Source of the DNA: Acidobacteriaceae bacterium | GTDB taxonomy: Bacteria; Acidobacteriota; Terriglobia; Terriglobales; Acidobacteriaceae | Length of the DNA: 37,268 nt | Assembly (NCBI GenBank): GCA_003134435.1 | Contig: PLBE01000235.1 | Span: forward strand, 1-37,268 | Direction: 5' to 3' | In this document: positions 2,004-25,822 of the stretch, piece after piece | Layout: every line of letters starts with the position of its first letter | Numbering within the stretch: position 1 is the first letter of the stretch | Translations under genes and position numbers: made by a program | The notes under the pieces: generated by a model | Told to the model about the DNA's origin: nothing | Databases searched by the model: none | The model's input: the letters and a program-made list of their open reading frames with translations, nothing else

Positions 2004-2071
2004 TTCCCTATCTCCCCATGCGAGGCTGTTTCGCCTCCATGTGTTTCTCTTCCAAGTCATTGTCTCCAGGC

Positions 2072-2818
2072 CTACACGGCCGGAGTCGTAATTTTCTTTA
2101 CTACTTCCCGCGTAAAGCTCTTGCCCAACCGGTCCTGCAGTGTTTCCTGGAAAACGATGGAGTCACCCGTGATCTTCATCACGTAGCCGTTGAACACCGG
2201 ATCGTTCTCCCGCAGAAAGTAAGCTTTATTCAGGCCATTACTGACCACGGCGATAAAGCCATTCTCCGCGCGCACCACGCCCCGCAGATTGATGGTCCCG
2301 ATTTCCAGGCACTTCTTGCCCGTGCTGCAACCGGAGCCGCCCGCATGGCTTACCACCGGACTCAGAAAAGGATCCCGTCTCCCGTTGGCTCGATACTTGC
2401 TGTCCACCGCGCTGTCTGTGCTGGCGGTGTTCTCCCCATCTCCGCCGGTCGCCCCAGCCTCGCCTGTACCGGCGTTGTTTCTGGGGACCGCCACGATGGC
2501 TCCGCGCTTGGCCACATTTCCTGCAGGCCGCTTCGCTCTGCCACTGTGTGGCGCAACGTTCGGCGCAACGGTTGGCCCAACAGCGTGTCGCGCATCCGCC
2601 GCATTTTTCGGACCTGCAGGCGCGGAGGAAGATTTCGCCGGAGTCATGGCCGCCGCCGGAGCCGAAGCTTGGATGCCTAACGCCTGATTCGACGCCGCAG
2701 TGGCATTGTTGCTCACCCCGTTCATGGTGTTGCGCGTGTTCTGGATGATGCTAGGACTCTGGGCCGAGGCCAAGCTCCCCGCCAGCACGCAAATCAGAAT
2801 AGTCACCGTCGGCTTCAT
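2072..2818 (-). CDS. pilP: Type IV pilus assembly protein PilP
   Basis: 248 residues. PilP links the inner-membrane PilNO complex to the PilQ secretin. Residues 1-19 look like a Sec signal peptide (cleavage near LASAQ). A low-complexity Ala/Asn/Pro region follows to about residue 140, then the PilP hallmark YRANGRRDPFLSPV and a C-terminal beta domain (INLRGVVRAENGFIAVV ... RENDPVFNGYVMKITGDSIV) ending in a basic tail. Classical PilP is a lipoprotein, but here the only early Cys (ILIC) is not in a proper lipobox, so it is probably a soluble or secretin-bound periplasmic form. Two Cys (GCSTGKKC) may form a disulfide. It sits 13 bases after pilO and before pilQ. The long N-terminal spacer is unusual compared with proteobacterial PilP of about 175 residues. 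Confidence 0.9.
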   Translation of the reverse strand: MKPTVTILICVLAGSLASAQSPSIIQNTRNTMNGVSNNATAASNQALGIQASAPAAAMTPAKSSSAPAGPKNAADARHAVGPTVAPNVAPHSGRAKRPAGNVAKRGAIVAVPRNNAGTGEAGATGGDGENTASTDSAVDSKYRANGRRDPFLSPVVSHAGGSGCSTGKKCLEIGTINLRGVVRAENGFIAVVSNGLNKAYFLRENDPVFNGYVMKITGDSIVFQETLQDRLGKSFTREVVKKITTPAV

Positions 2819-2831
2819 CTTCCTGTCCCTC

Positions 2832-3464
2832 CTACTTCTTCACCGGTGGTCCGGGCTGGCTGGCCGGCCCCGCCGGATCCAGGTCATGACTGAAATACGT
2901 CGTCGTCAAACAGGTCGCCACCACGGTTTCGCCAGGCGCGTATTGATAGGTGTGCTTCGCCTTCGCATCCATCGGCTTGCGGGTTGACGCCACCAGCAGG
3001 TTCGAAACATTGACGATGCGCTCGGTTTTCCCCAGGCGGTCGAAAAACCCGAGCATGGAGTAGTACGGCCCGTCGAACTCCACCTCGAATGGCACTTCCG
3101 TATAAAATTCTTTCGCGACATAGGGCCGCGCGGTATAGCGGCGAATTTCCACTCCCGATTTGCGCGCTTCTCCGCTCACCATGCGCATGAAGTTGTCCAC
3201 TTCCTTTTCGTCGGGCACGATGCGGCGCTCGATGTCGAGTTGCTGCTTCAGGCTAGCCAACTGGCGCTCGATGTCGGCCAGTTTCGGCCGGTAGGCTTCA
3301 AGCTCCGCGTTCTCGCGCAGCTTCGCCTGGAGCTTGATCTTGGCCGCGTCGTTCTGATCGTGCTGGGTCTTATAGACCGTGTAGTAAAGGCCGCCGGTGG
3401 CCAACACCGCCACCAGGATCAGCACACCTAAGAGCTTCACACCTGTCAATTCGCCAAGATTCAT
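2832..3464 (-). CDS. pilO: Type IV pilus inner-membrane alignment protein PilO
   Basis: 210 residues. PilO pairs with PilN in the inner membrane and aligns the pilus motor with PilP and PilQ. A single N-terminal membrane segment (about 9-30, VKLLGVLILVAVLATGGLYY) is followed by a coiled-coil stretch (about 38-80, charged, with LADIERQLASLKQQLD) and a ferredoxin-like domain with the family pattern VPFEVEFDGPYYSMLGFFDRLGK. A Shine-Dalgarno-like AGGCGGA lies upstream of the ATG. It is spaced 14 bases after pilN and 13 before pilP, as expected for one transcript. Call based on fold pattern and gene order. Confidence 0.92.
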   Translation of the reverse strand: MNLGELTGVKLLGVLILVAVLATGGLYYTVYKTQHDQNDAAKIKLQAKLRENAELEAYRPKLADIERQLASLKQQLDIERRIVPDEKEVDNFMRMVSGEARKSGVEIRRYTARPYVAKEFYTEVPFEVEFDGPYYSMLGFFDRLGKTERIVNVSNLLVASTRKPMDAKAKHTYQYAPGETVVATCLTTTYFSHDLDPAGPASQPGPPVKK

Positions 3465-3478
3465 AATCGGTTCCGCCT

Positions 3479-4066
3479 TTACGACTTCGCCTTTTCGCAG
3501 GTGAGCGTGAATTGAAACGCCTGCATGTCCTTAATTGCCTCGTCCTGGTAGCTTTCCTTCATCTCGATGTTGCGGAAGTAGCCAGTCTTCTGCAGGTTCG
3601 AAATCAGGTTGGCGACGGCATCGCTGCTCAGCGCCGTGCCGTCGATCGCCACGCTCGCGCCCTGATCCTGCATACTGTTCAGCCAGACTGCTTCGGTGCC
3701 GTTCACCGTATCGCCGATCATGGAGAGCAGGTTCACGGGGCCCGACTGGCTGGCGCGAAGCTGGTCAATCACATCCACACGCCGCTTGTAGTTGTCGGCC
3801 TGCTTCTGCCGCTCCAGATACCGAGCCTTGATGTCGGCCAGTTCGCGGTTTTTCTGCTCCGCGATCCGGGTTTGCACTTCGATCGATTTTCTTTCCCGGT
3901 CCAACTGGTACCAGTACCCGTAGTTCAGGGCACCGGCAATCAGCAAAACCGCCGCCACCTGGACCACGGGTCCGCCCAGGTTGCCCAGCTCAAAGCTCGG
4001 CATGGTAACGGGAGAGTTTTTCTTGCTTTTCGGTTTTGGAGAGCCCAGCAGATTGATTCGGATCAT
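3479..4066 (-). CDS. pilN: Type IV pilus inner-membrane protein PilN
   Basis: 195 residues. The N-terminus carries the short cytoplasmic INLL motif (residues 4-7), which in PilN proteins docks into PilM. A basic linker, one membrane segment (about 33-52, VVQVAAVLLIAGALNYGYWY), a coiled coil (about 55-95) and a C-terminal periplasmic alpha/beta domain follow (AVWLNSMQDQGASVAIDGTA). Its ATG overlaps the pilM stop codon by four bases, so translation is probably coupled, fitting the direct PilM-PilN contact. It acts with PilO as a heterodimer. Confidence 0.92.
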   Translation of the reverse strand: MIRINLLGSPKPKSKKNSPVTMPSFELGNLGGPVVQVAAVLLIAGALNYGYWYQLDRERKSIEVQTRIAEQKNRELADIKARYLERQKQADNYKRRVDVIDQLRASQSGPVNLLSMIGDTVNGTEAVWLNSMQDQGASVAIDGTALSSDAVANLISNLQKTGYFRNIEMKESYQDEAIKDMQAFQFTLTCEKAKS

Positions 4067-5118
4067 AGCTTTTCAAAGCTCCTCAGGGCCAAACCCACGG
4101 CTACCGCCAACTGCCCGGCATTCTGCTCGACCAACTGCGCTCCGACGCCGTCGACCGGAGCCGTCACTTTCTGAAACGGGTTAAATAATTCGACCGGCAT
4201 CGAGAACTCCTGGCGCAGAGCTTCGACCAGGCCCGGCACCTTGGCCGAACCGCCGGCCAGATAAATCTTCTCGATGTGTTCCCCGGCGGCGCTGGCGCGG
4301 AAGAAGTCGAATGTCTTCTGAATTTCCAGCACGATGATTTCCGTCACCTGCTGCAGGATCGGGGTCTTGGCATCGTCGTTTACCGTGCCCACCTTGTTGC
4401 CGAGCTTCAGGGATTCGGCATCGTCGAAGCTGAGATCCAGCTCCTTCTGCAGCGAATCGGTGTACTGGTGCCCGCCCACGGAAACGTCGCGCGGAAACAG
4501 CGGCGTCGTCCCCTTGACGATGTTGATATTCATCACGCTCGCACCCAGGTTCAGCAAGGCCACGACCTGAGTCGGCGCGGGCTCGTAGTTGTATTCGTAA
4601 CAATTCTGCAATGCGAGGGCATCGATATCCACAATAGCCGGAGTCTTGCCCGCCATCGAGAGTACGTTGGTGTAGTTCAGAATCTTGTCTTTCTTGACCG
4701 CCACCAGGAGCACGTCCATGGTCGGACTGGTCGCATCGTCGGAGAGAATCTGGTAATCGAGGTTGACATCGGCCAGATCGAAGGGAATATGCTGGGCCGC
4801 TTCTTTCTGGATGGTCTCGGCCAGTTCCTGATCGCTCATCGAAGGCAGCGATATCTTCTTGACGATCACCGAGTGTCCGCTGACCGCCGTCGCCACCGAC
4901 TTCGACTTGATCAAGGTGTCGGCAAACAGCTTGGCGATGGCCGCCGAAACCGTGCCCGAGTCCACGATCATGGAATCGACCACAATGTCGGGCGCGATCG
5001 GCTCCAGCCCGAGGTGCGCCACTTCGATTCCGGTGCGTGTCTTCCTGAGCTCCACCGCCTTGATGCTCGATGAGCCCACATCCAGACCCACTATCGTCTT
5101 CGATCCCATTCCAAACAT
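4063..5118 (-). CDS. pilM: Type IV pilus actin-like ATPase PilM
   Basis: 351 residues, the usual PilM length. It is a cytoplasmic actin/FtsA-fold protein that binds the PilN N-terminus and connects the alignment complex to the motor. The phosphate-1 motif is near the start (IVGLDVGSSSIKAVEL, about 9-24). A second nucleotide-site strand appears at VVALLNLGASVMNINIV, and the adenosine motif IYLAGGSAKVPGLVEAL lies near residue 290. No signal peptide or membrane segment is visible. It lies 25 bases after the regulator gene and overlaps pilN by four bases. Confidence 0.95.
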   Translation of the reverse strand: MFGMGSKTIVGLDVGSSSIKAVELRKTRTGIEVAHLGLEPIAPDIVVDSMIVDSGTVSAAIAKLFADTLIKSKSVATAVSGHSVIVKKISLPSMSDQELAETIQKEAAQHIPFDLADVNLDYQILSDDATSPTMDVLLVAVKKDKILNYTNVLSMAGKTPAIVDIDALALQNCYEYNYEPAPTQVVALLNLGASVMNINIVKGTTPLFPRDVSVGGHQYTDSLQKELDLSFDDAESLKLGNKVGTVNDDAKTPILQQVTEIIVLEIQKTFDFFRASAAGEHIEKIYLAGGSAKVPGLVEALRQEFSMPVELFNPFQKVTAPVDGVGAQLVEQNAGQLAVAVGLALRSFEKL

Positions 5119-7892: not shown

Positions 7893-8861
7893 TTACTGCT
7901 CGCCGCTCTCGGCCCCCAGCACCGTCATCTTCGTCCTGGATCGAAATTTCTTGTAATCGCGGTAGGTTTGCTCGACATCTTCGTCGTAGCCCTTAAAGAG
8001 CGCGATCCGCGCATCCAGATGGAGCTGTAAATACTTCGGCAGCCACACTTCATCGTTCACCTTGGTCAGTTCCACGACCACGCGCGTGCCTTTGTGGATT
8101 CTGGCCAGAACCCATCCGAACGAAACCGTATCGACGGCGGTGATATCGAGCTTGACCCATTGCGCTTCGGACTTATCGATCCAGACCCGGCCCTTGAACT
8201 TGGCGAGCACTTTTGCTTCGCGACTTCTGGGTTCGTAACCGGGACGAGGCTCGCCCTCCAGCACCCAGGCATCGTGCCCACCGATCGTCTCCGAGCCGAC
8301 GAGCCGGAAGTTGAAAGCGTCGGCAATCTCCAGCACAAATTTGCGATCTTCCTCGCGGTCCTTTTCTTCTTTCTCCAACCGTTTGCGGCGATCCTCTTCC
8401 GACTCGTTCTTCCGTTTGTCGATGATCTTCTGAATTTTGTCGTCTTCCTTTTTCGCTTCGTCGGCGGCCAGCGGTTGGTCGTCCTTCGCGGTCAGCCTCT
8501 GGACCTGCTCACCATATATCTCCAGGACTTCAAAGCTCCGCGATTCGATCTTCTTTACTGCGCCATGCCCGTCAAGGTGGTGCTCTTCCGCGCGCTCGCT
8601 GTAGGTGTAATCGCGCTGCTGCTTCTCATTTTCGAGGTCTTTCGCTTCGGCACGCAGCAAAAGCGCCCGAATCTGTTCCGGCGCCACCGTGCCCGAGGCA
8701 TCGGGCTTTAGATCAATGGGCTTCAGCGCAGCCGGGGGCGGAGCTGGTGTAGTGAGGGTCGAATCGGGAGCTGATTCCTGCCCGAAAGCGCAACCCGCCA
8801 GAACCAATATGAACACCAGACCACGACAGACGAGCCCTACCCAAGAACGCATGAAAGACAT
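7893..8861 (-). CDS. Predicted lipoprotein of unknown function, LolA-like C-terminal part
   Basis: 322 residues from the ATG at 8861. The start is chosen because residues 1-24 form a lipoprotein signal with lipobox LAGC (Cys24), and a GGGGATGG stretch precedes the ATG. The mature N-terminus is Pro/Ala-rich. Residues about 115-165 form a very charged Lys/Glu helix, probably a coiled coil (KKEDDKIQKIIDKRK). The C-terminal half has alternating beta strands (RLVGSETIGGHDAWVLEGEP, GRVWIDKSEAQWVKLDI, KGTRVVVELTKVNDEVWLPK) reminiscent of outer-membrane lipoprotein-sorting (LolA/LolB-like) folds. That resemblance is inference from pattern. A further in-frame extension upstream to 9086 overlaps the next gene and would bury the signal peptide, so it was rejected. 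Confidence 0.75.
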   Translation of the reverse strand: MSFMRSWVGLVCRGLVFILVLAGCAFGQESAPDSTLTTPAPPPAALKPIDLKPDASGTVAPEQIRALLLRAEAKDLENEKQQRDYTYSERAEEHHLDGHGAVKKIESRSFEVLEIYGEQVQRLTAKDDQPLAADEAKKEDDKIQKIIDKRKNESEEDRRKRLEKEEKDREEDRKFVLEIADAFNFRLVGSETIGGHDAWVLEGEPRPGYEPRSREAKVLAKFKGRVWIDKSEAQWVKLDITAVDTVSFGWVLARIHKGTRVVVELTKVNDEVWLPKYLQLHLDARIALFKGYDEDVEQTYRDYKKFRSRTKMTVLGAESGEQ

Positions 8862-8926
8862 ACGAAACCATCCCCAGCGCAGTTCCTCGAGATTCCAGCT
8901 TTTCCCGGACCCCGGTGCCCCCATGG

Positions 8927-9550
8927 TTAATGCTCTTTGTCGGCGCGTTCGAGACATCCGGCCCGGAATGACCGCCCATCCAGCCGATGCAGTCGCTTCG
9001 CCTGAGCGCGTGTGATCAGCGAATAATGAGAAATCGTGAGCAGATATTCCGCCACGAACCACACCGGCTCCTCGGTCGTCATCCAATGCAGCGCATCAAA
9101 ACGCCGCAGGTTGACGGGTCGCGAAAAAGTCCGCAGCGTACGCTCCCCCCGCAGATTGAAGTAGGTGTCGAAATAGCTGAGCGCCAGTTCCCGCAGCGAA
9201 CGGTACACCGGCTCGCGATAGCGGCATCCCGTGTAATTCGATTTAGCCACGGCGCCCCAGTGCCCATCCATCTTATAAACGGCAATGACATGGTCAGTAT
9301 CATGGACGGCTTCGAGATCCAGAATTAAAGGAGGATAGCCAATCGCCCGCAGCGCAGCCGCCGCAAACAGCGCCCCTTCGTAGCAATGAGAAGTATTCTC
9401 ACGCAATACTCGCCGGGGAGACCACGCGCTGTCGGCCAGGTGGTACGGCATGTCGTCAAGCGCTTGTTGAATGCCGTGCGGCGTCTTGAACCCACGCAGT
9501 TTGCGGAGTTCCGCCGGGCTCAGACCCCAAGTGGCGTTGCTTTTTTTCAT
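8927..9550 (-). CDS. Transglutaminase-like cysteine protein
   Basis: 207 residues from the ATG at 9550, preceded by GGGGAAAG. A GTG at 9577 in the same frame is a weaker alternative. The pattern ENTSHCYEGALFAAAALRAIGY, with Cys56 at the start of a helix, then DTDHVIAVYKMDGHWGAVAKS, with His87, resembles the Cys-His part of the transglutaminase/papain-like fold. The third catalytic residue is not clear to me. No signal peptide or membrane segment is seen, so it is probably cytoplasmic. It is followed by the lipoprotein gene 65 bases downstream on the same strand, so the two may share a transcript. Confidence 0.7.
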   Translation of the reverse strand: MKKSNATWGLSPAELRKLRGFKTPHGIQQALDDMPYHLADSAWSPRRVLRENTSHCYEGALFAAAALRAIGYPPLILDLEAVHDTDHVIAVYKMDGHWGAVAKSNYTGCRYREPVYRSLRELALSYFDTYFNLRGERTLRTFSRPVNLRRFDALHWMTTEEPVWFVAEYLLTISHYSLITRAQAKRLHRLDGRSFRAGCLERADKEH

Positions 9551-9689
9551 CCCAACTTTCCCCAAGAGACGCAACACCGTCTCCCACGTATGCCGGAGTC
9601 TCTTGAAGGTAGCAGGAGCGGGCGCTGATTGGGAATAGAAGCGCCGGTCCGTGGCGCAGTTAAGATGGCGCAGTGAAATTAAACTACGG

Positions 9690-9727
9690 CTCGCAGAAAG
9701 CCCGCCCAGGTCTGACCCGGGCGGGCT
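9690..9727 (-). terminator. Intrinsic terminator after the exported protein gene
   Basis: Perfect 9-base arms AGCCCGCCC (9699-9707) and GGGCGGGCT (9719-9727), extended inward by GGTC/GACC. On the minus strand the hairpin is followed by TTTCTG, a short T-run. It lies 48 bases past the stop at 9776. Confidence 0.6.
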
Positions 9728-9775
9728 CGATACCTTGCACGCTCAATTCTCGCCAATGATCGATGAATGATTTTG

Positions 9776-10663
9776 TTAATGGCTATCCGCAGGCTTCTCC
9801 GCCGGCTTCTTGGCAGCCGCCGGAGCAGAGGCACCTTTTGGCTTCCAGAACTCGGGGTCGGCCTTCACCCATTCTTCCCGCGGATAGCTCATACGCGGGT
9901 TAAATGCGAAGAGGTTGGTCTGGCTCGACTCCACCGCCGCCGCCGTCAACTCCGCCAGCTTCTTCATGCCGGCCTCGCCCATGGCCGCTTCAAAGTCCTT
10001 GCCCATGGCGAAGTTCCGGTCAATTTCAGACGCGGACTTCATCGCATTGAAGATGATGTAGGTCGTATCCGGATTTCCATATACCGACGAATAGGTGATC
10101 CACTTGGCGTCGGGAATTCTCTTGTAAGCCTCGGTGACCAGTTTCACGAGGGCGTCCCAATCCTTGTCGTGTCCCTGGCGAACCTGGAATTTCGAGATTT
10201 CGAAATAGCGCGAGTGGGCGATATCCACCTCGGGATGCAGGCTGTATTCCTCGCGTAACGCGAACGCGCCGCTATCGGTCTCGCTCAACAGTTCGCCGTC
10301 GATGGCCCATGCTTTGTCAAGTTCCGCCTCCAACGCAGCATTTTTCTGGGTTGCGAGCGTATCTTTTTCCCAAGCTGCAAAAGAATCGTAGCCGGTCAGA
10401 AACAGCGCCCGCGACGGACCGGACAGCGATTCAACCGCCAGATAATGGGTTGGCCATTTGGCGCGCATCATGGCTTGCACGAAATTGCTTTCCGTTCTGG
10501 TATGTTGCGCCCCGGACTTGCCCGGCTTGGTATATTCCCGGGTAATCATCAGCACTTTCGGTGGCATCATGGCAGCATTCGTATCCTGGGCGACCACGGT
10601 CCCGGACATTGCAGCCATGAACATCGCAAACAAAGTAAGCATCGATCCTGTAAGTCTCTTCAT
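9776..10663 (-). CDS. Exported protein of unknown function
   Basis: 295 residues from the ATG at 10663, chosen for the consensus AGGAGGT just upstream and because it exposes a signal peptide (about 1-26, ending TVVAQ). The mature part seems to hold two related alpha/beta segments (KVLMITREYTKPGKSGAQH... and YFEISKFQVRQGHDKDWDAL...), the kind of pattern seen in dimeric ferredoxin-like (NIPSNAP/antibiotic monooxygenase type) domains. No catalytic residues can be assigned. The C-terminus is a Lys/Ala/Pro-rich tail (KPKGASAPAAAKKPAEKPAD). It is probably periplasmic. Five tandem copies of a 15-base unit lie just upstream of the Shine-Dalgarno, and a terminator follows the stop. Confidence 0.75.
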   Translation of the reverse strand: MKRLTGSMLTLFAMFMAAMSGTVVAQDTNAAMMPPKVLMITREYTKPGKSGAQHTRTESNFVQAMMRAKWPTHYLAVESLSGPSRALFLTGYDSFAAWEKDTLATQKNAALEAELDKAWAIDGELLSETDSGAFALREEYSLHPEVDIAHSRYFEISKFQVRQGHDKDWDALVKLVTEAYKRIPDAKWITYSSVYGNPDTTYIIFNAMKSASEIDRNFAMGKDFEAAMGEAGMKKLAELTAAAVESSQTNLFAFNPRMSYPREEWVKADPEFWKPKGASAPAAAKKPAEKPADSH

Positions 10664-11001
10664 GGTTTGACCTCCTGGGTCAGACAATTTTGGGTCAGAC
10701 AATCTTGGAGCAGACATTCTGGGTCACACAAACCTGGTCGCACAAATTACGACATCCTGTGAAAGACGATCTACGTCACAACCTCCGTCACAGCCGGCTA
10801 GAGAGTGGAAATCGAAAATCTTCCGTGGACTTACCCGGGCTTGAAAAACCGACTGAATTGTACACACATTCGCCTTTTTTGTGTTGCCAAAATCTCCGCG
10901 CGGGCTGAAATCGCCGGGACACAGGGCTCTCTACTGCTTCGAAATTGCTGCGACGGGAATTTCGCCGAGAAGATCTTCCCTTTCGCATTACCATTCCAAC
11001 C
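10664..11001. other. Divergent intergenic region with a tandem repeat array
   Basis: 338 bases between the divergent exported-protein and membrane-protein genes. It holds the 15-base repeats (10676-10749) and looser GTCACA copies (10774-10794). No clear promoter pair could be assigned on either strand. Confidence 0.5.
10676..10749. repeat. Five tandem copies of a 15-base unit
   Basis: Units: TGGGTCAGACAATTT (10676), TGGGTCAGACAATCT (10691), TGGAGCAGACATTCT (10706), TGGGTCACACAAACC (10720, one base overlap) and TGGTCGCACAAATTA (10735). The first two differ at one base, and the array degrades away from the minus-strand gene. It starts 13 bases upstream of the ATG at 10663 and touches its Shine-Dalgarno region. 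Confidence 0.8.
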
Positions 11002-12570
11002 ATGACTTCTTCCCTCCAACAATGGCTGCGTGATCCGCTTTTTCTTTTGTGTGTGACTGCGGGACTGCTGGCCTTCGTGGTGCAATCGGGCGAGGTGGGC
11101 ACGGCCGACACGGCCCATCGCCTCCAAACCACCCACTGGCTCTGGACCTCGGAGCCCCAGGTTTTTCCCTACGAGTATCCTGAGTTTGGACTGCACGGCC
11201 GCGGCGGGCGCCTTTATTCCTGGTATGGCATCGGCCAGTCGCTGCTCATGTTGCCCGCCGATCTCATCGGCACGTGGATCGAGCGCTGGCCCGTCTTTTC
11301 CGAATACAGCGACGACCCCTCCGTGCGCAGCATTGTGGTCAGTTGCCTGACCAGCATTCTGGTGAATGTTCTCAGCGCGCTCGCCGCCTTCCGCTTCCTC
11401 GGGCAGTTGCGCTTTAGCGTGAAGGAGTCAATGGCGGGCGTGCTGGCCATGATGTTCTGCACAACTCATCTTCACTATACCCAGAATATGACCGAGAACA
11501 ATTACATCCTCTTGCTGACGCTGGCCGGCTTTTCGTTCCAGTACGAGTGGCTGCGCACCGGCAGCCGCCGCGCCCTTTTCATCGGCTCCACCGCGCTAGG
11601 GCTCAACCTGCTCACGCGTCTTACCACCGGGATGGACCTGATTGCGGTGGGCGTCTTTTTGTTCCTCGTAGTCTGGTTCGAAGCGGCTGCCGCTCATGAC
11701 TTGTGGCCGCGCCTCATTACTTACTGCAAAATCGCCGCGCCCACTTACTCTTTCTTCTTCGTGCTCGATCGGGCCTACCAGTTTTATCGGTTCGGCTCGT
11801 TCACGAATACCTACGTCGCCATTTTTGCCCAGGAATTTCGGCAGCGCGATCCCACCCTGCCCGCGAACTTCCCCTGGAACACGCCGTTTCATACGGGCGT
11901 TCTGGGAGCGCTCTTCCAGCCCGAGAAATCGATCTTCCTTTTCGATCCACTGCTGGTGTTGTCGATTTTCCTGCTCGCGTGGCTTTGGAAGCGTCTGACT
12001 CCAGAAGTGCGCGCTTACGCCGCAACCTGCCTTCTTCTGCTGCTGGCCTACATCGCCTTCTACGCGCGCTATGCCTTCTGGGCGGGCGATTTCTCCTGGG
12101 GCGACCGCTATGTTTCCAGCATCGTCGAACTCATTGCCTTCTTAGCCGTACCGCTGCTCCTGCGCTACCGCGAACATTTGAGCACGCTGATATGGCGCGT
12201 AGGATGCGTTCTGGTCGCGCTCAGCCTGATGATTCAACTAGCTTCGCTCGTCTTCTGGCTGCCATTGGAAAACTACCAGATGGAGACACTCGGGCATCCT
12301 ACGTTCGTCATCGCTCTGCGTTGTAAAAACATTGTCGCCTTCGCCTTAGGCAAAATGGATGCCTGGGGCTTGAACACCGAAGCCATGGGCTGGGACCAAT
12401 GGGACTACGTTCACCTCACGACCTGGAATTTCCTGCCCTTTCTGCTGCGCCGGGTCGGAACAGCCCCCGCCTGGGTCGTGAACGCCACGCTCGCGGTCTG
12501 GATCGCCGGAATGGCTTTGCTGGTTGGGGTTTTGCTGCGCTTGCAACGCACCTTGCGAAATGTCGCGTGA
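11002..12570 (+). CDS. Polytopic membrane protein, possible GT-C type glycosyltransferase
   Basis: 522 residues from the ATG at 11002. A TTG at 10945 is an alternative that adds a charged, non-membrane leader. About ten or more membrane segments are visible (for example LFLLCVTAGLLAFVV, SLLMLPADLIGTWI, IAVGVFLFLVVWFEAA, LLVLSIFLLAWLW, ATCLLLLLAYIAFYA). The first extracytoplasmic loop contains TADTAHR, and later loops carry aromatic/acidic patches (WAGDFSWGDRY), a layout like GT39/GT83-class polyprenyl-phosphate-sugar transferases. No diagnostic catalytic motif is certain, so the enzyme class is inference. No Shine-Dalgarno is obvious. Neighbours do not reveal a sugar pathway. Confidence 0.7.
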   Translation: MTSSLQQWLRDPLFLLCVTAGLLAFVVQSGEVGTADTAHRLQTTHWLWTSEPQVFPYEYPEFGLHGRGGRLYSWYGIGQSLLMLPADLIGTWIERWPVFSEYSDDPSVRSIVVSCLTSILVNVLSALAAFRFLGQLRFSVKESMAGVLAMMFCTTHLHYTQNMTENNYILLLTLAGFSFQYEWLRTGSRRALFIGSTALGLNLLTRLTTGMDLIAVGVFLFLVVWFEAAAAHDLWPRLITYCKIAAPTYSFFFVLDRAYQFYRFGSFTNTYVAIFAQEFRQRDPTLPANFPWNTPFHTGVLGALFQPEKSIFLFDPLLVLSIFLLAWLWKRLTPEVRAYAATCLLLLLAYIAFYARYAFWAGDFSWGDRYVSSIVELIAFLAVPLLLRYREHLSTLIWRVGCVLVALSLMIQLASLVFWLPLENYQMETLGHPTFVIALRCKNIVAFALGKMDAWGLNTEAMGWDQWDYVHLTTWNFLPFLLRRVGTAPAWVVNATLAVWIAGMALLVGVLLRLQRTLRNVA

Positions 12571-19073: not shown

Positions 19074-19532
19074 CTACCAGGTGGAATAGGCCGTGCCATC
19101 GAGACCGGTTTGGCTGGAGCCGCTATGGCAGCCCGTTAAACCCGGCTGGGTCTGGTCGATCGACTTGAGCGAGTCTTCCGTATCGCACTGCCATGTGTCC
19201 TTGGTGCCGGTAATATCGTTCGGGATAAATTTGAGGTATCCCGCCGAAACTAAATCATCCAGCGACTGCGGCGCCTTCTGCTTATCCAGCGTGTACTGAT
19301 CGATGACTTTGTTGATCGTCGCCAGATTCTGTTTCAGCGTGGTTTCGCGCGCCTGGATAATACTCTGGTTATACATCGGCAATGCAATCGCCAGCAGGAT
19401 CAGGATCATGCTGATCACGACCACCATCTCGATCAGCGTGAATCCCCGCGCGTAATTGTTTTTGCCTGCCCGGGAATTCGTCATTCTGCGATCGCCGACT
19501 TTCGAATCGCGCGCTTTGGACCCTGATTTCAT
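19074..19532 (-). CDS. Type II secretion-like pseudopilin (GspG type), second copy
   Basis: 152 residues. A basic leader of about 30 residues precedes the prepilin peptidase site G-FTLIEMVVV (cleavage after Gly, Glu at +5) and a hydrophobic helix (VVISMILILLAIALPMY). The mature part has the GspG helix pattern (TTLKQNLATINKVIDQYTLDK, LDDLVSAGYLKFIP) and ends LDGTAYSTW. Two Cys (CDTEDS... TGCH) may pair. Its ATG directly follows the stop of the first pseudopilin (TAG ATG), with AAGGA upstream. Assembly into a short pseudopilus with the neighbour is inferred. Confidence 0.9.
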   Translation of the reverse strand: MKSGSKARDSKVGDRRMTNSRAGKNNYARGFTLIEMVVVISMILILLAIALPMYNQSIIQARETTLKQNLATINKVIDQYTLDKQKAPQSLDDLVSAGYLKFIPNDITGTKDTWQCDTEDSLKSIDQTQPGLTGCHSGSSQTGLDGTAYSTW

Positions 19533-20036
19533 CTACCAGTCCTTGTACTTTGTGCCGTCCAGAGCGACTTGGTCCGACTTAGTGTAAACATCGAAAACAT
19601 TTTGGCCGCCCCAGGAATCCGAGTCTTTGTCATCCTGCGTGGAACGCATTCCCCATTCCTGTTTGGTCATGGGATCCACCGGAATCCGACGGAGGAACTT
19701 AAGCTTCTTCCCCGCTACATCCACACCCTTCACCAGCGTATCGAGGTCTGGAGGATAGTTGTCGCTCCCGAGTTTGGTCTGGAAGGCGTTCAGATCGGCG
19801 GCGGCCTTGTAGCGATCGATGGCGTCGCGCATCATCCAAAGGTCTTCCCGCAGTTCGTGCTCGCGCTCCCGGTAAATTGTGATCCTGACCAGCGGAAACG
19901 CCGCGCCGACCAGAATCGCGAGGATGGCGGTGGCGACAATCAACTCGATCAGCGTGAAACCGCGCTGTGGGCGGACCGGCGATGACCTGCTCTCCGTTCT
20001 CCGAATGTTGGTCGACTGCCTCATGACGTTTCTCAA
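19533..20036 (-). CDS. Type II secretion-like pseudopilin (GspG type), first copy
   Basis: 167 residues. Leader peptide of about 26 residues with a prepilin cleavage site G-FTLIELIVATAILAILVGAA. The mature helix continues into REREHELREDLWMMRDAIDRYK, and the globular part has PPDLDTLVKGV, RRIPVDPMTKQEWG and a C-terminal acidic loop (DDKDSDSWGG), probably for calcium as in GspG. It ends VALDGTKYKDW, the same LDGT-x-Y-x-x-W ending as its neighbour, so the two are likely paralogues. Starts 18 bases after the secretin stop. Confidence 0.92.
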   Translation of the reverse strand: MRNVMRQSTNIRRTESRSSPVRPQRGFTLIELIVATAILAILVGAAFPLVRITIYREREHELREDLWMMRDAIDRYKAAADLNAFQTKLGSDNYPPDLDTLVKGVDVAGKKLKFLRRIPVDPMTKQEWGMRSTQDDKDSDSWGGQNVFDVYTKSDQVALDGTKYKDW

Positions 20037-20054: not shown

Positions 20055-22349
20055 CTACTGAATCGTGACCGCCGCTTGCGCGCCACTCATGGCGATAGGC
20101 TGCATCGACGGGTCCCGGGCGCCGCCGCGAGTGATGGTCAGAGCCGATTGGCCCGGACCCTTCGCCATGAATGTGAGCGTCACTACCGCGCCCTGTCCGG
20201 AAACGCCGCCCGCGCCCGGAGGCCGGGTGGCCGTGATCTGGAGCGTGCCCGTTACCGGATCGTCGCGATGCACCAATGCCACGGCTTGCCCGTCCTGCGA
20301 CAGGAATCCACCATTCGACACGTTGACGACCTGCAACTGGTTCGGATCGTAATTCAGTTGCACCGGAACCGAATACACGTTCTGCCCGCCCGAAACCATG
20401 ACGTTGACGGTGAAGGTCGAGCCCTTGGCTTGACTCAACGTGGGAGGATCGAACAGGAACGTTCCAGCGGCCGCACCCGGCTGAACCGGCGGAGCCTGAT
20501 TTTGCGGAGTTGGCGACTGCGGAGTGGCTCCTGGCGCACCCGGAGCAACCGGCGTCACGGGCGCTGTCGCCGGAGTCACCGGCTTGCCGTTCGAGTGTCG
20601 CAGCACCAGGGCGTTCGCCGTACCTACATCCAGCATGTCGGCAGCGCTATGGGAAGTGTCAGGCCCGCGGATAATGTGCGGAACCAGCACAAATACGATC
20701 TCGTTGGTGGAGTGGTCGGAGGTATCCTGCGCAAAAAGATATTTGAGGATTGGGATGGAGGAGAGACCCGGAATCCCGGCCAGAGCTTTTGTCTTCGAGT
20801 CCTCCATCATTCCGCCGAGCAAGCTGACCTCGCCATCCTTAAGGCGTATTTCGTTCTCGATCTTGCGTTGCCCGATCACGGGTTGGCTGATGCCGCCGAT
20901 GCTCACGTAGGAGTCCACGTCCGAGACATCCATGGTCATCTTCAACGAAATTTCCCGGCCCGCGTGCACTCGCGGCGTGATCTCGATGTTCACGCCCACA
21001 TCCAGGTATTGAAATTGCGTGTTAACCAGAGGGTTGATGCCAACTCCACCAATTCCCGGCTGGAACGACCCTGTCGCCACCGGCACGCGGTCGCCGATCT
21101 TCAAGGTGGCCTTCTGCCCGTCCAGCGCCCGAATCTGCGGATTCTGAATGACCCGGGTATTGGAATCGCTCATCAGCGCCGACGCTGTCGCCTGTGGAAT
21201 CGTGACCTGGAAATCGGTGGCATTCAGGTTGGCAATCGTATTGAGACTGAGGCCATTGCTGGACGACGATGTACCGGTAGTGGTGGTGCTACCTGTGCTG
21301 CCGGTAGATGTGCTGATATTGGGCTGCAGCGCGACCGTAACGCTGGTCGGAGGATTGATGCCCAGGGTGTGCGACTTGTCGCGACTCACCTGCATTACGG
21401 CTACTTCGATCAGCACTTCGGGTTTGGCCTTATCCAGATCGTCCACTAGTTTCTGAGCCAGCGCCACCTGGTCGGGCGTGCCGCGCACTACGATCGCTCC
21501 CTGCGAAGGCAACTGCTGAATGCGGCTCACTTCGAGGATGGTGCGCATGGCGTTGACGACGTCCTGCAATTCGGTAGGCTGGGAAAGATTGGAAAGATAA
21601 AAAGTTTTGATGACGTTTTGTTCCAGCTCTTTCCGCTTTGCAGGGTTGTCTTGCGCCACAAAAATCGTGTTCGAGGTCACCGGACGCCAAAAGGTCTTGG
21701 TCTCGAATGAAATGATCTCCAGCGCGTCTTCGAGAGTCACGCCGTTCAGTTCGATGCGCACCTGGCGCGGCGTGTAATCGGGGTCGAAAAGCACGTTGAT
21801 GCCCGCCAGTTTGCCTACCGTCTCGTAGATCACGTTGGATTTTTCCGTGACCTTGAGAGTAATCGGCACGTTGGAAAGCGGAGTGAGTTCCACTGGGCCC
21901 TGCGCCGTTTCCAGGCGCCGGCGTAACGCGTTCGTACCCGGCGAAACCGCCTGCGGCTGCGGATTTTGCTCCTCCCGGATCATCTGTTGCGTGCGTTTCA
22001 ATTCCTGCTGCGCAATGAACGAAGAAGGATCCGTCTCCAGCGCTTTCTGGAACTGCACCGCCGCCTCGTCGAGTTTGCCGGCATCGCGGAGAATCTGCCC
22101 ATGATGCACTTCCGCCGAAGCCGCCAGAAAACGGGTGCGCTCGAATGCCGCCCGGTATCTCAGATCTTTCGGTTTCAAACTATAGGCCTGCTTGAAATAG
22201 TCGAAGGCTTGCTCGTAATTCTGCCGCGCCTCGGCATCTTGACCTTTGTCGTAGGCCGACTTGGCGGAATCCAGGGTTTTGGCAGAAAAAGGAAGCCCCA
22301 AGCACAGCATTAGCAGAACAAACAGAGCCGGACGGATTACGCGTCTCAT
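20055..22349 (-). CDS. Secretin with N-terminal TPR and C-terminal cohesin-like domain
   Basis: 764 residues. Outer-membrane pore of a type II secretion/pilus-like system. Order: signal peptide (about 1-23), two or three TPR motifs (30-115), STN-type domain (160-230), secretin N1-like domain (about 246-310), secretin core (311-562) with the hallmark IRLKDGEVSLLGGMMEDSKT and IVFVLVPHIIRGP, a Ser/Thr/Gly-rich loop at 343-367, a Pro/Ala/Gln linker (590-626), and a C-terminal beta-sandwich (628-764) with FLFDPPTLSQAKGSTFTVNV, VPVQLNYDPNQLQVVNVS and AVVTLTFMAKGPGQSAL, like cohesin domains. A duplicated Shine-Dalgarno element precedes the start. First gene of an operon with two pseudopilins. The cohesin-like tail is atypical for secretins. 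Confidence 0.92.
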   Translation of the reverse strand: MRRVIRPALFVLLMLCLGLPFSAKTLDSAKSAYDKGQDAEARQNYEQAFDYFKQAYSLKPKDLRYRAAFERTRFLAASAEVHHGQILRDAGKLDEAAVQFQKALETDPSSFIAQQELKRTQQMIREEQNPQPQAVSPGTNALRRRLETAQGPVELTPLSNVPITLKVTEKSNVIYETVGKLAGINVLFDPDYTPRQVRIELNGVTLEDALEIISFETKTFWRPVTSNTIFVAQDNPAKRKELEQNVIKTFYLSNLSQPTELQDVVNAMRTILEVSRIQQLPSQGAIVVRGTPDQVALAQKLVDDLDKAKPEVLIEVAVMQVSRDKSHTLGINPPTSVTVALQPNISTSTGSTGSTTTTGTSSSSNGLSLNTIANLNATDFQVTIPQATASALMSDSNTRVIQNPQIRALDGQKATLKIGDRVPVATGSFQPGIGGVGINPLVNTQFQYLDVGVNIEITPRVHAGREISLKMTMDVSDVDSYVSIGGISQPVIGQRKIENEIRLKDGEVSLLGGMMEDSKTKALAGIPGLSSIPILKYLFAQDTSDHSTNEIVFVLVPHIIRGPDTSHSAADMLDVGTANALVLRHSNGKPVTPATAPVTPVAPGAPGATPQSPTPQNQAPPVQPGAAAGTFLFDPPTLSQAKGSTFTVNVMVSGGQNVYSVPVQLNYDPNQLQVVNVSNGGFLSQDGQAVALVHRDDPVTGTLQITATRPPGAGGVSGQGAVVTLTFMAKGPGQSALTITRGGARDPSMQPIAMSGAQAAVTIQ

Positions 22350-23263: not shown

Positions 23264-23614
23264 GGCAGCTACGTGCCGAGGGACGCCCCGCCGATTCCTA
23301 TCGACGCCAGTCGGGCATGGGGACAAGCCGTGTGCCCGTACTGTGCAAACCGTTGCATACTGGTCCGCCGGCAAACGCCAATCGTACCGCCCGCTGGCAC
23401 TCCCGGTTGGAACCTGGCGTGCTTGTTGATGGTCGAGGTCCTCGCGAAACGCGCCAACATTGGGCAAGATCGGTTATACTCGTCCAATTCTTAACCTTCC
23501 CCGCACCATCATTCGGCGTACGGTCGTGATTTAATTGCACGCACGGTGGGCTCGCTCTGACGCTTGAACTTTGACTGGGACTCTCGAACGCGGACTCGAA
23601 CGTTGACTCGAACA
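23264..23614. other. Intergenic gap between smpB and the exported protein
   Basis: About 351 bases. I see no tRNA or tmRNA and no strong terminator. The last 36 bases are 12-14 base tandem repeats (23579-23616). Confidence 0.5.
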
Positions 23615-23616
23615 AT
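23579..23616. repeat. Three tandem copies of a GACTCGAAC unit running into a start codon
   Basis: GACTCTCGAACGCG (23579-23592), GACTCGAACGTT (23593-23604), GACTCGAACAAT (23605-23616). The last two bases of the third copy are the AT of the ATG at 23615. If translated from further upstream, the unit reads as an RT-rich tetrapeptide repeat. Confidence 0.7.
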
Positions 23617-25822
23617 GACAAAAACGCCGACAGGAAGATTCGCCTTCATTTTCCGGCTGGTCGCGACGTTGTCCCTGGCCTTCGTGGTCTCTTCCTTTGC
23701 CCAGCAAACCGCGCGTGTCATTCGCGAAATCAAACACGATGTCTCCGCTCCGCTCGCCGAACTCGATCGCCTGACGCCCGCGCAGCCGCACCGCTTCTCG
23801 CCTCGCGTGCTGAAGATTCTTCCGACTAGCCCGGCCGTCAGCGAGCGCGAGTTCTCCGAACCCGACATTGCTCTGCAAGCAACGGCTCTGCCTCCCGTGG
23901 CCGCCAACCTCGGCTTGAATATGGATGGCCTCGGTCAAGGACAGTATGGGTTTCTGCTTGACTTCACGCCCCCGGATACCAACGGCGCTGTCGGCGACAC
24001 GCAATATGTGCAGTGGGTGAATGGCGAGTTTGCGGTCTTTGACAAAACCGCCGGCACGCTCCTCGCGGGACCCACCGAGGGCAACGCCCTGTGGGCGGGG
24101 TTTGGCGGAGGTTGCGAGGCCAATAACGACGGCGACCCTATCGTGCAATTCGACAAGATTGCACAACGCTGGGTCCTCACCCAATTCTCTTTCACGACGC
24201 TGCCCTACACCCAGTGCGTAGCCGTCAGCACCACCAGTGACGCCACCGGCACCTACAACCGCTACGCCTTTTCTTTTGGCGATACGGATTTCGCCGACTA
24301 TCCGAAGCTGGGCGTTTGGCCGGATGCTTATTACATGTCGTTCAATCTTTTTCAGGACGGCAGCAACTTTATTGGCGCCGATGCCTGCGCCCTCGATCGC
24401 AACGCCATGCTGGCCGGTAATACTGCAACCATGGTTTGCTTCCAGGAGCCTTCCACGGTTGCCAGCCTGCTGCCTTCCGACATGGACGGGACCATCCCGC
24501 CGGCCGCCGGAGAACCCGCTTTCTTCATGAACTTCGGCGCCAACACGATCCAACTCTGGGCCTTCCACGTGGACTTCACAACCCCGCCGAACTCCACCTT
24601 CACCGGTCCGACCATCCTTCCGGTTGCGTCATTCACGGCCCGCTGCCTCCGATCGTGCGTGGTGCAACCCGGAACCACGCAGAAACTGGACGCGCTCGGC
24701 GACCGCCCCATGTACCGCCTTGCCTATCGGCAGTTCCCGAGTGGAGTCGAGTCCCTTACGTTCAACCACTCGATCTCCACGGGCATTCGCTGGTATGAAG
24801 TTCGCAATCCGAATGGAGCCCCCACGCTGTACCAGCAGGGCACCTTCGGCCCCGACACCAACACGCGCTGGATGGCGAGCATGGCAATGGATCAGGCTGG
24901 CGACATGGCTCTGGGCTATAGCATTTCCAGCAAGTCCATCTATCCGTCCGTCTACATCACCGGACGGGTCGCGAGCGATCCGTTGGGCGCGATGGAAGGG
25001 GAACAGGTCATTGTCAGCGGATCCGGTTCCCAGACGGGAGGCCAGAACCGCTGGGGCGACTATAGCTCCATGTCCGTCGATCCGGTGGACGACTGCACTT
25101 TCTGGTACACGCAGGAATACATGCAATCGACCGGCAGTTTCAACTGGAATACGCGTATCGCCAGCCTCATCTTCCCCAACTGCGGCACGGGAGGCGCAGG
25201 AGGAAGCCCGACCGCGACAGTCTCACCGGCGACACTGGCTTTCGCCAAAACGCCGATCGGACAAACTACCGCCTTGACGATTACTGTCACCAACAACGGA
25301 AACGCGACGCTGAATGTGTCCAACGTCGCCATCATCGGCGCGTTCGCGATCCAGTCGAATACCTGCGGCGCCCCGGTCCTTGCCGGCAGCAACTGCGCTA
25401 TCACCGTGGGATTTACTCCAACCGTCAAAGGCGCCTTCACCGGCGTCTTGCAGCTTACGGATAACGCTCCCAACAACCCGCAGAAAGTCAGCCTGACCGG
25501 AACCGCCGTGTCGCTCGCTCTTTCGCCCAGCGCTCTGAGTTTCGGTTCCGAGCCGGTGGGCCAGTCGACTCCGCCCCAGACGCTCACCATCTCGAATGTG
25601 AGCGCGGCCACGGTGAATCTCACCGGCATCACGATCGCGACCACGCCCCACGACTACACGATCTCCAACAATGCGTGTGGCGGTTCGTTAGCCGCCGGGA
25701 CCAGTTGCTCGCTCAACGTCTCTTTCAATCCCACCAAGAAGGGCGCCCGCAACGGCACGCTCAACATCGCCAACAACGGCGGCAGTACCGCCTCCGCGAC
25801 CCTGAGCGGGACGGGGCAATGA
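23615..25822 (+). CDS. Exported protein with two C-terminal choice-of-anchor D / Ig-like domains
   Basis: 735 residues from the ATG at 23615, which exposes a signal peptide (FIFRLVATLSLAFVVSSFAQQ). A TTG at 23564 in the same frame would add an Arg/Thr repeat leader. The large middle region (about 70-525) is rich in beta strands and aromatic residues (DTNGAVGDTQYVQWVNGEFAVFD, FADYPKLGVWPDAYYMS) and has several Cys. It may be a propeller-like domain, family not recognised. Residues about 529-625 and 630-735 are two repeats of the ASPM-SPD-2-Hydin/choice-of-anchor D type (ATLAFAKTPIGQTTALTITVTN, ALSFGSEPVGQSTPPQTLTISN), common in Acidobacteriota surface proteins. No sorting signal follows. Probably secreted or surface bound. 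Lacks a Shine-Dalgarno. Confidence 0.8.
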   Translation: MTKTPTGRFAFIFRLVATLSLAFVVSSFAQQTARVIREIKHDVSAPLAELDRLTPAQPHRFSPRVLKILPTSPAVSEREFSEPDIALQATALPPVAANLGLNMDGLGQGQYGFLLDFTPPDTNGAVGDTQYVQWVNGEFAVFDKTAGTLLAGPTEGNALWAGFGGGCEANNDGDPIVQFDKIAQRWVLTQFSFTTLPYTQCVAVSTTSDATGTYNRYAFSFGDTDFADYPKLGVWPDAYYMSFNLFQDGSNFIGADACALDRNAMLAGNTATMVCFQEPSTVASLLPSDMDGTIPPAAGEPAFFMNFGANTIQLWAFHVDFTTPPNSTFTGPTILPVASFTARCLRSCVVQPGTTQKLDALGDRPMYRLAYRQFPSGVESLTFNHSISTGIRWYEVRNPNGAPTLYQQGTFGPDTNTRWMASMAMDQAGDMALGYSISSKSIYPSVYITGRVASDPLGAMEGEQVIVSGSGSQTGGQNRWGDYSSMSVDPVDDCTFWYTQEYMQSTGSFNWNTRIASLIFPNCGTGGAGGSPTATVSPATLAFAKTPIGQTTALTITVTNNGNATLNVSNVAIIGAFAIQSNTCGAPVLAGSNCAITVGFTPTVKGAFTGVLQLTDNAPNNPQKVSLTGTAVSLALSPSALSFGSEPVGQSTPPQTLTISNVSAATVNLTGITIATTPHDYTISNNACGGSLAAGTSCSLNVSFNPTKKGARNGTLNIANNGGSTASATLSGTGQ

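Follow-up and report, generated by a model that had tools for sequence, protein, structure and literature searches.

The 37,268-nucleotide stretch of Acidobacteriaceae DNA analyzed here (contig PLBE01000235.1 of assembly GCA_003134435.1; hereafter the window) encodes, on its minus strand at positions 20055-22349, a 764-amino-acid secretin in which tetratricopeptide repeats (TPRs) precede the secretin domains and a cohesin domain follows them. Our findings make it reasonably probable that this protein serves as outer-membrane secretin to a type IV filament machine, one similar to the type II secretion system (T2SS) and widespread in Acidobacteriota, with the cohesin acting as a tethered periplasmic arm for a partner other than a dockerin. 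Computation directly shows the order of the domains, the fold of the cohesin, the conservation of the partner genes, and, in the window's class, Terriglobia, the splitting of the operon. The gene and its parts are as follows, with the basis of each assignment in parentheses.

20055..22349, minus strand: secretin with signal peptide, TPR, N0/N1, secretin barrel, linker, and cohesin tail (open reading frame, Pfam, AlphaFold2 model)
22281..22349, minus strand: signal peptide, about residues 1-23 (by eye; lipobox scan)
21966..22271, minus strand: TPR region, residues 27-128 (Pfam TPR_2; helical hairpins with a predicted local distance difference test score, pLDDT, of about 95 to residue 120)
21435..21872, minus strand: N0/STN-like domain and N1 (Secretin_N), residues 160-305 (Secretin_N match, model)
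20667..21416, minus strand: secretin barrel region, residues 312-561 (Pfam Secretin 391-561; Foldseek to PilQ, ExeD, and GspD)
20595..20666, minus strand: post-barrel segment, residues 562-585, ending in DVGTANALVLRH (alignment, tail comparison)
20475..20594, minus strand: disordered Pro/Ala-rich linker, about residues 586-625 (pLDDT below 50; composition)
20058..20471, minus strand: cohesin domain, residues 627-764 (Pfam, tail profile, model, Foldseek, VIA)

A preliminary description of this gene, made from the sequence alone, had read it as signal peptide, TPR, STN, and secretin, an order that stands in all but the STN call. Pfam places Secretin (PF00263) at residues 391-561 (E-value 2.7e-38, 131.6 bits against a cut-off of 27.5), Secretin_N at 262-310 (E-value 1.2e-6), and TPR_2 in two stretches (E-value 3.5e-8), the repeats being borne out by confidently modelled helical hairpins at residues 27-128. 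STN was not called by Pfam in the window secretin and was called in 7 of 30 relatives; in its place the full-length AlphaFold2 model (30 sequences) has an alpha/beta N0-like domain at 163-233, followed by N1 at 246-305. The secretin region was modelled at lower confidence, and a predicted template modelling score of only 0.38 means that the model does not fix the placement of the domains relative to one another. Its Foldseek matches were PilQ, ExeD, and GspD, with cohesins further down the list. The Pro/Ala linker of the preliminary description was likewise recovered: residues 586-625 contain 12 Pro and 6 Ala among 40 positions, and residues 585-625 are predicted to be disordered (pLDDT below 50). 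Across the same 30 sequences, mean pairwise identity was 44.7% for the secretin domain, 38.4% for N0/N1, 30.5% for the TPR region, 28.6% for the cohesin, 28.3% for the post-barrel segment, and 15.9% for the linker. The cohesin is retained as a domain yet is not among the most conserved parts, standing about level with the TPR region.

Several comparisons agree that the tail, first described as a cohesin-like beta-sandwich, has a true cohesin fold as modelled. Pfam Cohesin (PF00963) matches residues 637-740 with an E-value of 3.3e-12 (47.2 bits; cut-off 24.1), and the full-length model has a beta-sandwich at residues 629-763 with a pLDDT of about 95, which reached 96.8 when residues 627-764 were modelled alone (49 sequences). 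The best Foldseek match of this tail model was 2xdh (E-value 1.2e-11), and the 50 rows listed were, by title, cohesins or cohesin-bearing complexes, scaffoldin titles among them. Similarly, the 50 rows listed by VIA had Z-scores of 17.9 to 11.6, and 47 were titled as a cohesin or a cohesin-dockerin complex, the other three being the scaffoldin complexes 4fl4 and 3kcp and the Clostridium perfringens interaction module 2o4e. A profile of the tail matched 26 PDB sequences at E-values up to 0.1, of which one is an archaeal PCNA; the other 25 come from cohesin or scaffoldin entries as individual chains, two being listed as endoglucanase. The non-cellulosomal cohesins of Archaeoglobus fulgidus (2xdh) and C. 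perfringens (2vo8, 2jh2) share the fold at Z-scores of 17.0 to 17.9; the cohesin described here differs in being joined to a secretin by a disordered linker.

The preliminary description had looked to Acidobacteriota for the same architecture, and there it recurs. In a phylum sample of 297 genomes, 273 matched the window secretin at an E-value of up to 1e-20, many of the listed matches stopping short of the tail; a Pfam cohesin was found in some protein of 169 of these genomes and in 31 of 31 sampled genomes of the window's family. The fetched loci yielded 89 distinct open reading frames matching the secretin profile, and 60 full-length secretins, the window's own included, remained once those scoring below 600 bits, those with fewer than 561 residues, and those lacking their start had been left out. 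Linker and tail are present in 56 of the 60, a proportion that is not a frequency since the set was chosen: it comprises the 30 best matches and loci selected because they reached the tail, had a cohesin match, or were short. An artefact of assembly or reading frame is ruled out as the source of the tail, since it is present in these 56 relatives. Among the 30 aligned relatives, all chosen with a tail, Pfam detected Secretin in 30, TPR_2 in 29, and Cohesin in 26. A contig scan gave a best 80 loci titled, bar two, as Acidobacteriota, Aminicenantes, Vicinamibacter-type, Saccharicenans, or Sulfopaludibacter, the two being titled Acidimicrobiia and "uncultured bacterium"; these 80 carry no inference about other phyla. 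Six of 14 control genomes have secretins and none of those six has a cohesin, the only control with one being Methanosarcina.

Four of the 60 secretins (L105, L106, L107, and L109, by locus number) are tail-less, ending 28 to 62 residues past the barrel. L109 groups with the tailed L108 in the secretin-core tree and L105-L107 stand apart, and these two positions suggest that the tail was lost twice. The tail-less genes lie at 8386-10140 (L105), 9713-11446 (L106), 8658-10412 (L107), and 8246-10273 (L109) of their loci, and the tail-less TPR-secretin paralogue has a further, shorter secretin gene next to it in L105, L106, and L107.

The proposal that the tail binds a dockerin-like partner found no support. 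A Pfam search found no Dockerin_1 in this genome, and the domain occurred in 1 of the 31 family genomes, all of which have a cohesin, and in 110 of the 297 phylum genomes. Cohesin and Dockerin_1 were found together in 65 of the 297, close to the 63 expected under independence (169 x 110 / 297), and 10 of 23 tailed loci outside the family sit in dockerin-bearing genomes. This near-independence and the single dockerin genome in the family indicate that the tail does not depend on dockerins that Pfam can recognize; the counts are of Pfam Dockerin_1, and degenerate dockerins may lie below Pfam's reach. Other patterns in the phylum represent possible cellulosome-like or unpaired systems: three genomes (G157, G291, G105) have 7-13 cohesin matches, many in very long open reading frames, and four others (G016, G030, G043, G068) have 13-21 dockerin matches with no Pfam cohesin found.

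Gene order, together with domain architecture, is the main support for assigning the secretin to a distinct, type II-like machine; the preliminary description had raised the possibility of a distinct export machine. In other classes, a single run encodes GspF, GspE with an MshEN domain, a PilM-like protein, PilN, PilO/GspM (T2SSM_b), C9 (a small protein encoded before the secretin), the secretin, and two pseudopilins. An extracytoplasmic function (ECF) sigma factor and a protein with Secretin_N only are often encoded ahead of GspF, and the run then often continues with a gene for an immunoglobulin-like (Ig-like) protein, plus K7, which resembles a pilin on visual inspection and reaches no Pfam cut-off. 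The Ig-like gene (Big_1, Invasin_D3, PKD) follows the pseudopilins in L047, L050, L053, L054, L055, L116, L121, and L122; its match is below cut-off in L053 and L054, and in L121 the gene lies kilobases away on the opposite strand. Across the 60 secretins, a pseudopilin gene lies within 1.5 kb downstream of 45, with two pseudopilins in 36; none was found close downstream in L052, L115, L118, L119, L120, L048, or L049.

The operon is split in the window's class, where the secretin and two pseudopilins stand beside smpB without the other machine genes (window, L038, L039, L041-L044, and L110); pepA is near the secretin in the window and in five of the other seven. L040 and L108, second copies in this class, have the tail and lack the smpB and pseudopilin neighbors. 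The pseudopilins of the window are:

19533..20036, minus strand: pseudopilin 1 (N_methyl, E-value 4.5e-10; conserved neighbor)
19074..19532, minus strand: pseudopilin 2 (N_methyl, E-value 3e-7; GspG/ComGC-like below cut-offs; conserved neighbor)

In this genome, the remaining genes (GspF, GspE, PilM, PilN, PilO, C9, and K7) form one run on another contig, C114 (L103), so that pseudopilins adjoin the secretin and the GspE and GspF genes, adjacent in other classes, are found on C114. From the gene order of other classes we infer that the C114 genes work with the window secretin. The operon profiles scored 929 bits for GspE and 436 bits for GspF on C114, and 430 and 335 bits for the PilB and PilC homologues on contig C129, where the PilB reading frame is in two pieces, which lowers its 430 bits. 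Two further pilin-like open reading frames lie some 5 kb upstream of the C114 run.

The genome also holds a type IVa pilus set, with ATPases and a PilC-like gene on C129 and PilM-PilP-like genes with a secretin at the start of the window. In addition, contig C216 carries a Tad-like secretin and C5 a fourth secretin. The PilM-PilN-PilO-PilP-like cluster occupies window positions 1-5118 on the minus strand, about 15 kb from the cohesin secretin, and is followed by a second secretin that runs off the window edge. As a partner for the cohesin secretin this cluster was rejected, since its own secretin follows it and better-scoring machine genes are found on C114. On the plus strand at 23564-25822, between smpB and an aminopeptidase gene, the window encodes a 752-amino-acid protein with ASH/HYDIN-type Ig repeats; in L042 and L043, smpB and the aminopeptidase gene adjoin with no such gene between them.

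Scores against curated families of known systems fall below the thresholds. The window secretin scored 157.6 bits for GspD (TIGR02517; cut-off 351.35), 102.6 for the type IVa PilQ (TIGR02515; 284.35), and 129.9 for MshL, the secretin of the mannose-sensitive hemagglutinin pilus (TIGR02519; 250.2). The C114 ATPase scored 533.8 bits for GspE (TIGR02533; 630.25) and 538.4 for PilB (TIGR02538; 675.65), and the C114 matches to GspF, GspL, and GspM were all under their NCBIfam cut-offs. These shortfalls agree with a distinct machine but are weak as proof of a new one, since the genome's own PilB homologue on C129 likewise falls short (630.8 bits against 675.65), as does its PilC homologue.

The T2SS resembles the machine in its secretin with N-domains, its GspE and GspF homologues, its GspL- and GspM-like genes, and its pseudopilins; the components tested here, however, miss the equivalog cut-offs for GspD, GspE, GspF, GspL, GspM, and GspG, and the machine has PilN/PilO-type proteins and a secretin with TPR and cohesin ends. 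The preliminary description had held that finding the same tail in ordinary T2SS secretins would argue against a distinct machine, and the outcome is divided: the tail does sit in a type II-like machine, whereas the six secretin-bearing control genomes lack cohesins. The Pseudomonas liposecretin HxcQ shares a lipobox with relatives outside the window's class, but the window protein has no lipobox and carries TPRs and a cohesin tail, neither of which is known from HxcQ. Residues 25-155, the TPR region, match the NCBIfam model of the Amuc_1098-family type IV pilus outer-membrane protein at 57 bits, far under its 750-bit cut-off. The nearest studied relative may be the Pul/Oxp system of Geobacter, with its similar gene order and lipoprotein secretin. 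Pul/Oxp is described in Geobacteraceae as a second, atypical T2SS with the pseudopilins PulG, OxpG, and TklG that secretes the multicopper oxidase OmpB (PMC3543383).

The lipid anchor divides these secretins sharply by class. Outside the window's class, 18 of 22 have a strict lipobox ahead of the TPRs, and inspection by eye brings the total to 22 of 22: the lipobox departs slightly from the pattern around its cysteine in L051, L115, and L119, and in L048 it sits inside an over-long predicted start. Inside the class the count is 0 of 38, with pattern hits discounted in L020 (at residue 1) and L024 (in an over-long predicted N-terminus). The lipobox scan found none in the window secretin, in which Leu precedes Cys16, and the protein therefore does not qualify as a liposecretin. 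In a maximum-likelihood tree of the secretin core, in which L048 is still unlabelled, a branch with 100/100 support parts the two groups. A lipid anchor is predicted in 18 families, and the two families without it both belong to the window's class. Loss within that class is therefore the simpler account, under which the ancestor probably piloted itself to the outer membrane and the anchor later disappeared from this one class.

Relatives also occur on proteobacterial plasmids. A tblastn search of the protein against 72,556 plasmids returned 807 records, none covering 80% of the query; the tail alone gave four matches, all in Burkholderiales and all within type II-like operons, annotated as one secretin, one TPR protein, and two cohesin proteins. 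We examined 15 loci, namely 14 of the 25 best rows (H1-H25) and H44, the other 11 rows coming from the same genera and matching almost equally; close copies are included (L206/L217, L210/L216), and six of the 15 were read from open reading frames only, having no gene table. GspF-, GspE-, secretin-, and pseudopilin-like genes occur in one stretch in all 15, and 14 have a strict lipobox, the fifteenth (L213) having a near lipobox by eye. A clear cohesin tail is present in six (L203, L204, L205, L206, L208, and L217; HH probability 98.6-99.3), all from Burkholderiales, and Pfam agrees for all four of these that were scanned. The tail of L213 is a likely distant cohesin (HH probability 93) and that of L209 is doubtful (64). 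HH comparison detected no cohesin in the tails of L207, L210, L212, L214, L215, and L216, and the 53-residue tail of L211 is too short for the comparison. As plasmid relatives without a clear cohesin tail keep the machine genes, the tail is not needed for the core machine; judged from these operons, it is a module present in some members and missing from others, while the machine that bears it is conserved. Three plasmid proteins are already labelled "cohesin domain-containing protein," so the domain combination is visible in public annotation. Among the open-access matches listed (titles and abstract starts, with subscription papers outside the scope), none described a secretin with a cohesin domain. 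Large surface-type proteins, which are possible cargo, are encoded near the machine in L203, L204, L205, L206, L207, L208, L215, and L217; their domains on the megaplasmids include RHS, FG-GAP, TIG, PKD, cadherin, F5/8-type C, and Ig.

The S-domain of secretins lies on the periplasmic side, and by analogy the cohesins would be suspended in the periplasm, beneath the outer membrane. An outward-facing tail, the other possibility raised in the preliminary description, is unlikely from what is known of secretins, in which the segment after the secretin domain binds pilotins. In the mechanism we propose, the window's class would have lost the lipid and kept a plain signal peptide, and every subunit of the ring would carry one cohesin on a flexible tether at the periplasmic side of the outer membrane, giving at least a dozen docking arms. 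At the mouth of the pore these arms may hold a non-dockerin partner, be it a component of the envelope, a part of the machine, or cargo. Meanwhile the pseudopilins, powered by a GspE-like ATPase whose gene is on the other contig, would push cargo out.

The tail might instead replace the pilotin-binding S-domain, the cohesin or the segment before it binding an outer-membrane lipoprotein, or the TPRs of a neighbor, for ring assembly; we judge this unlikely, while giving it some weight. Published work reports that the segment following the secretin domain of T2SS secretins, the S-domain, binds the pilotin (PMC3542185, PMC3276575) and that the C-terminus of the Tad secretin is bound by TadD, a TPR lipoprotein (PMC10499894). 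The window's class, having no lipid anchor, needs another route to the outer membrane, and the Ig-like gene after the pseudopilins in several other families would be a candidate partner (in L053 its product is, by eye, a predicted lipoprotein). However, the cohesin is also present where a lipid anchor should make a pilotin unnecessary. In the window's family no Ig-like gene was observed next to the secretin, nor was one among the annotated plasmid operon genes, which leaves the Ig-like protein unsupported as a universal partner. A motif within post-barrel residues 562-585 has a similar counterpart close to where the tail-less paralogues end; this segment may therefore serve assembly, and the cohesin may have a further role. 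For this reason we prefer, with moderate confidence, the reading as a tethered docking arm, with a partner other than a dockerin, to the pilotin substitute.

That the arms are cargo receptors, which bind secreted proteins (large Ig-like, RHS, or FG-GAP) and pass them to the pore, seems rather improbable. Proteins with RHS, TIG, FG-GAP, PKD, fn3, F5/8-type C, and Ig domains are encoded near cohesin-tailed plasmid operons (L203-L206, L208, L217), but operons without a clear cohesin tail (L207, L212, L215) have such neighbors too, and across the window's family no gene next to the secretin stood out as candidate cargo. Cellulosome-like docking, in which the cohesin would bind dockerin-bearing enzymes or anchors, is very improbable: the fold is that of dockerin-binding cohesins and the phylum does have Dockerin_1, but the counts of this Pfam domain in this genome, in its family, and at the tailed loci outside it all speak against dockerin pairing as a general explanation, which we reject.

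Several points weigh against the docking-arm reading itself. No partner of the cohesin tail was identified, the periplasmic position of the tail rests on other secretins, and the pairing of the C114 genes with the window secretin comes from gene order in other classes. The loss of the lipid, as opposed to its gain, is a parsimony argument on a midpoint-rooted tree. Four of the 60 Acidobacteriota secretins have no tail, and 9 of the 15 plasmid relatives have no clear cohesin tail, while all 15 keep the ATPase, membrane-protein, and pseudopilin genes. All four tail-less paralogues also lack a close downstream pseudopilin, but so do 11 of the 56 tailed secretins (two of these loci being too short to tell), and tail and machine are thus only loosely tied.

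Acidobacteriota are abundant in soil, and their protein export is little described. More broadly, it is possible, and we suggest it only tentatively, that the Acidobacteriota and Proteobacteria share a separate family of type II-like machines, in which a TPR-secretin ring bears a crown of tethered cohesins for a non-dockerin partner and lipid self-piloting gave way to another route in one class. This would represent a new use of the cohesin fold, as the docking arm of an outer-membrane nanomachine. If the docking-arm reading is correct, a widespread export machine of Acidobacteriota has so far gone largely unnamed, most of its parts falling under the cut-offs of curated models. Natural comparisons are also available, since comparable operons include secretins that have the lipid anchor and others that lack it, and likewise for the cohesin tail, making testable both how a secretin reaches the outer membrane without a pilotin and which ligands other than dockerins a cohesin may bind.

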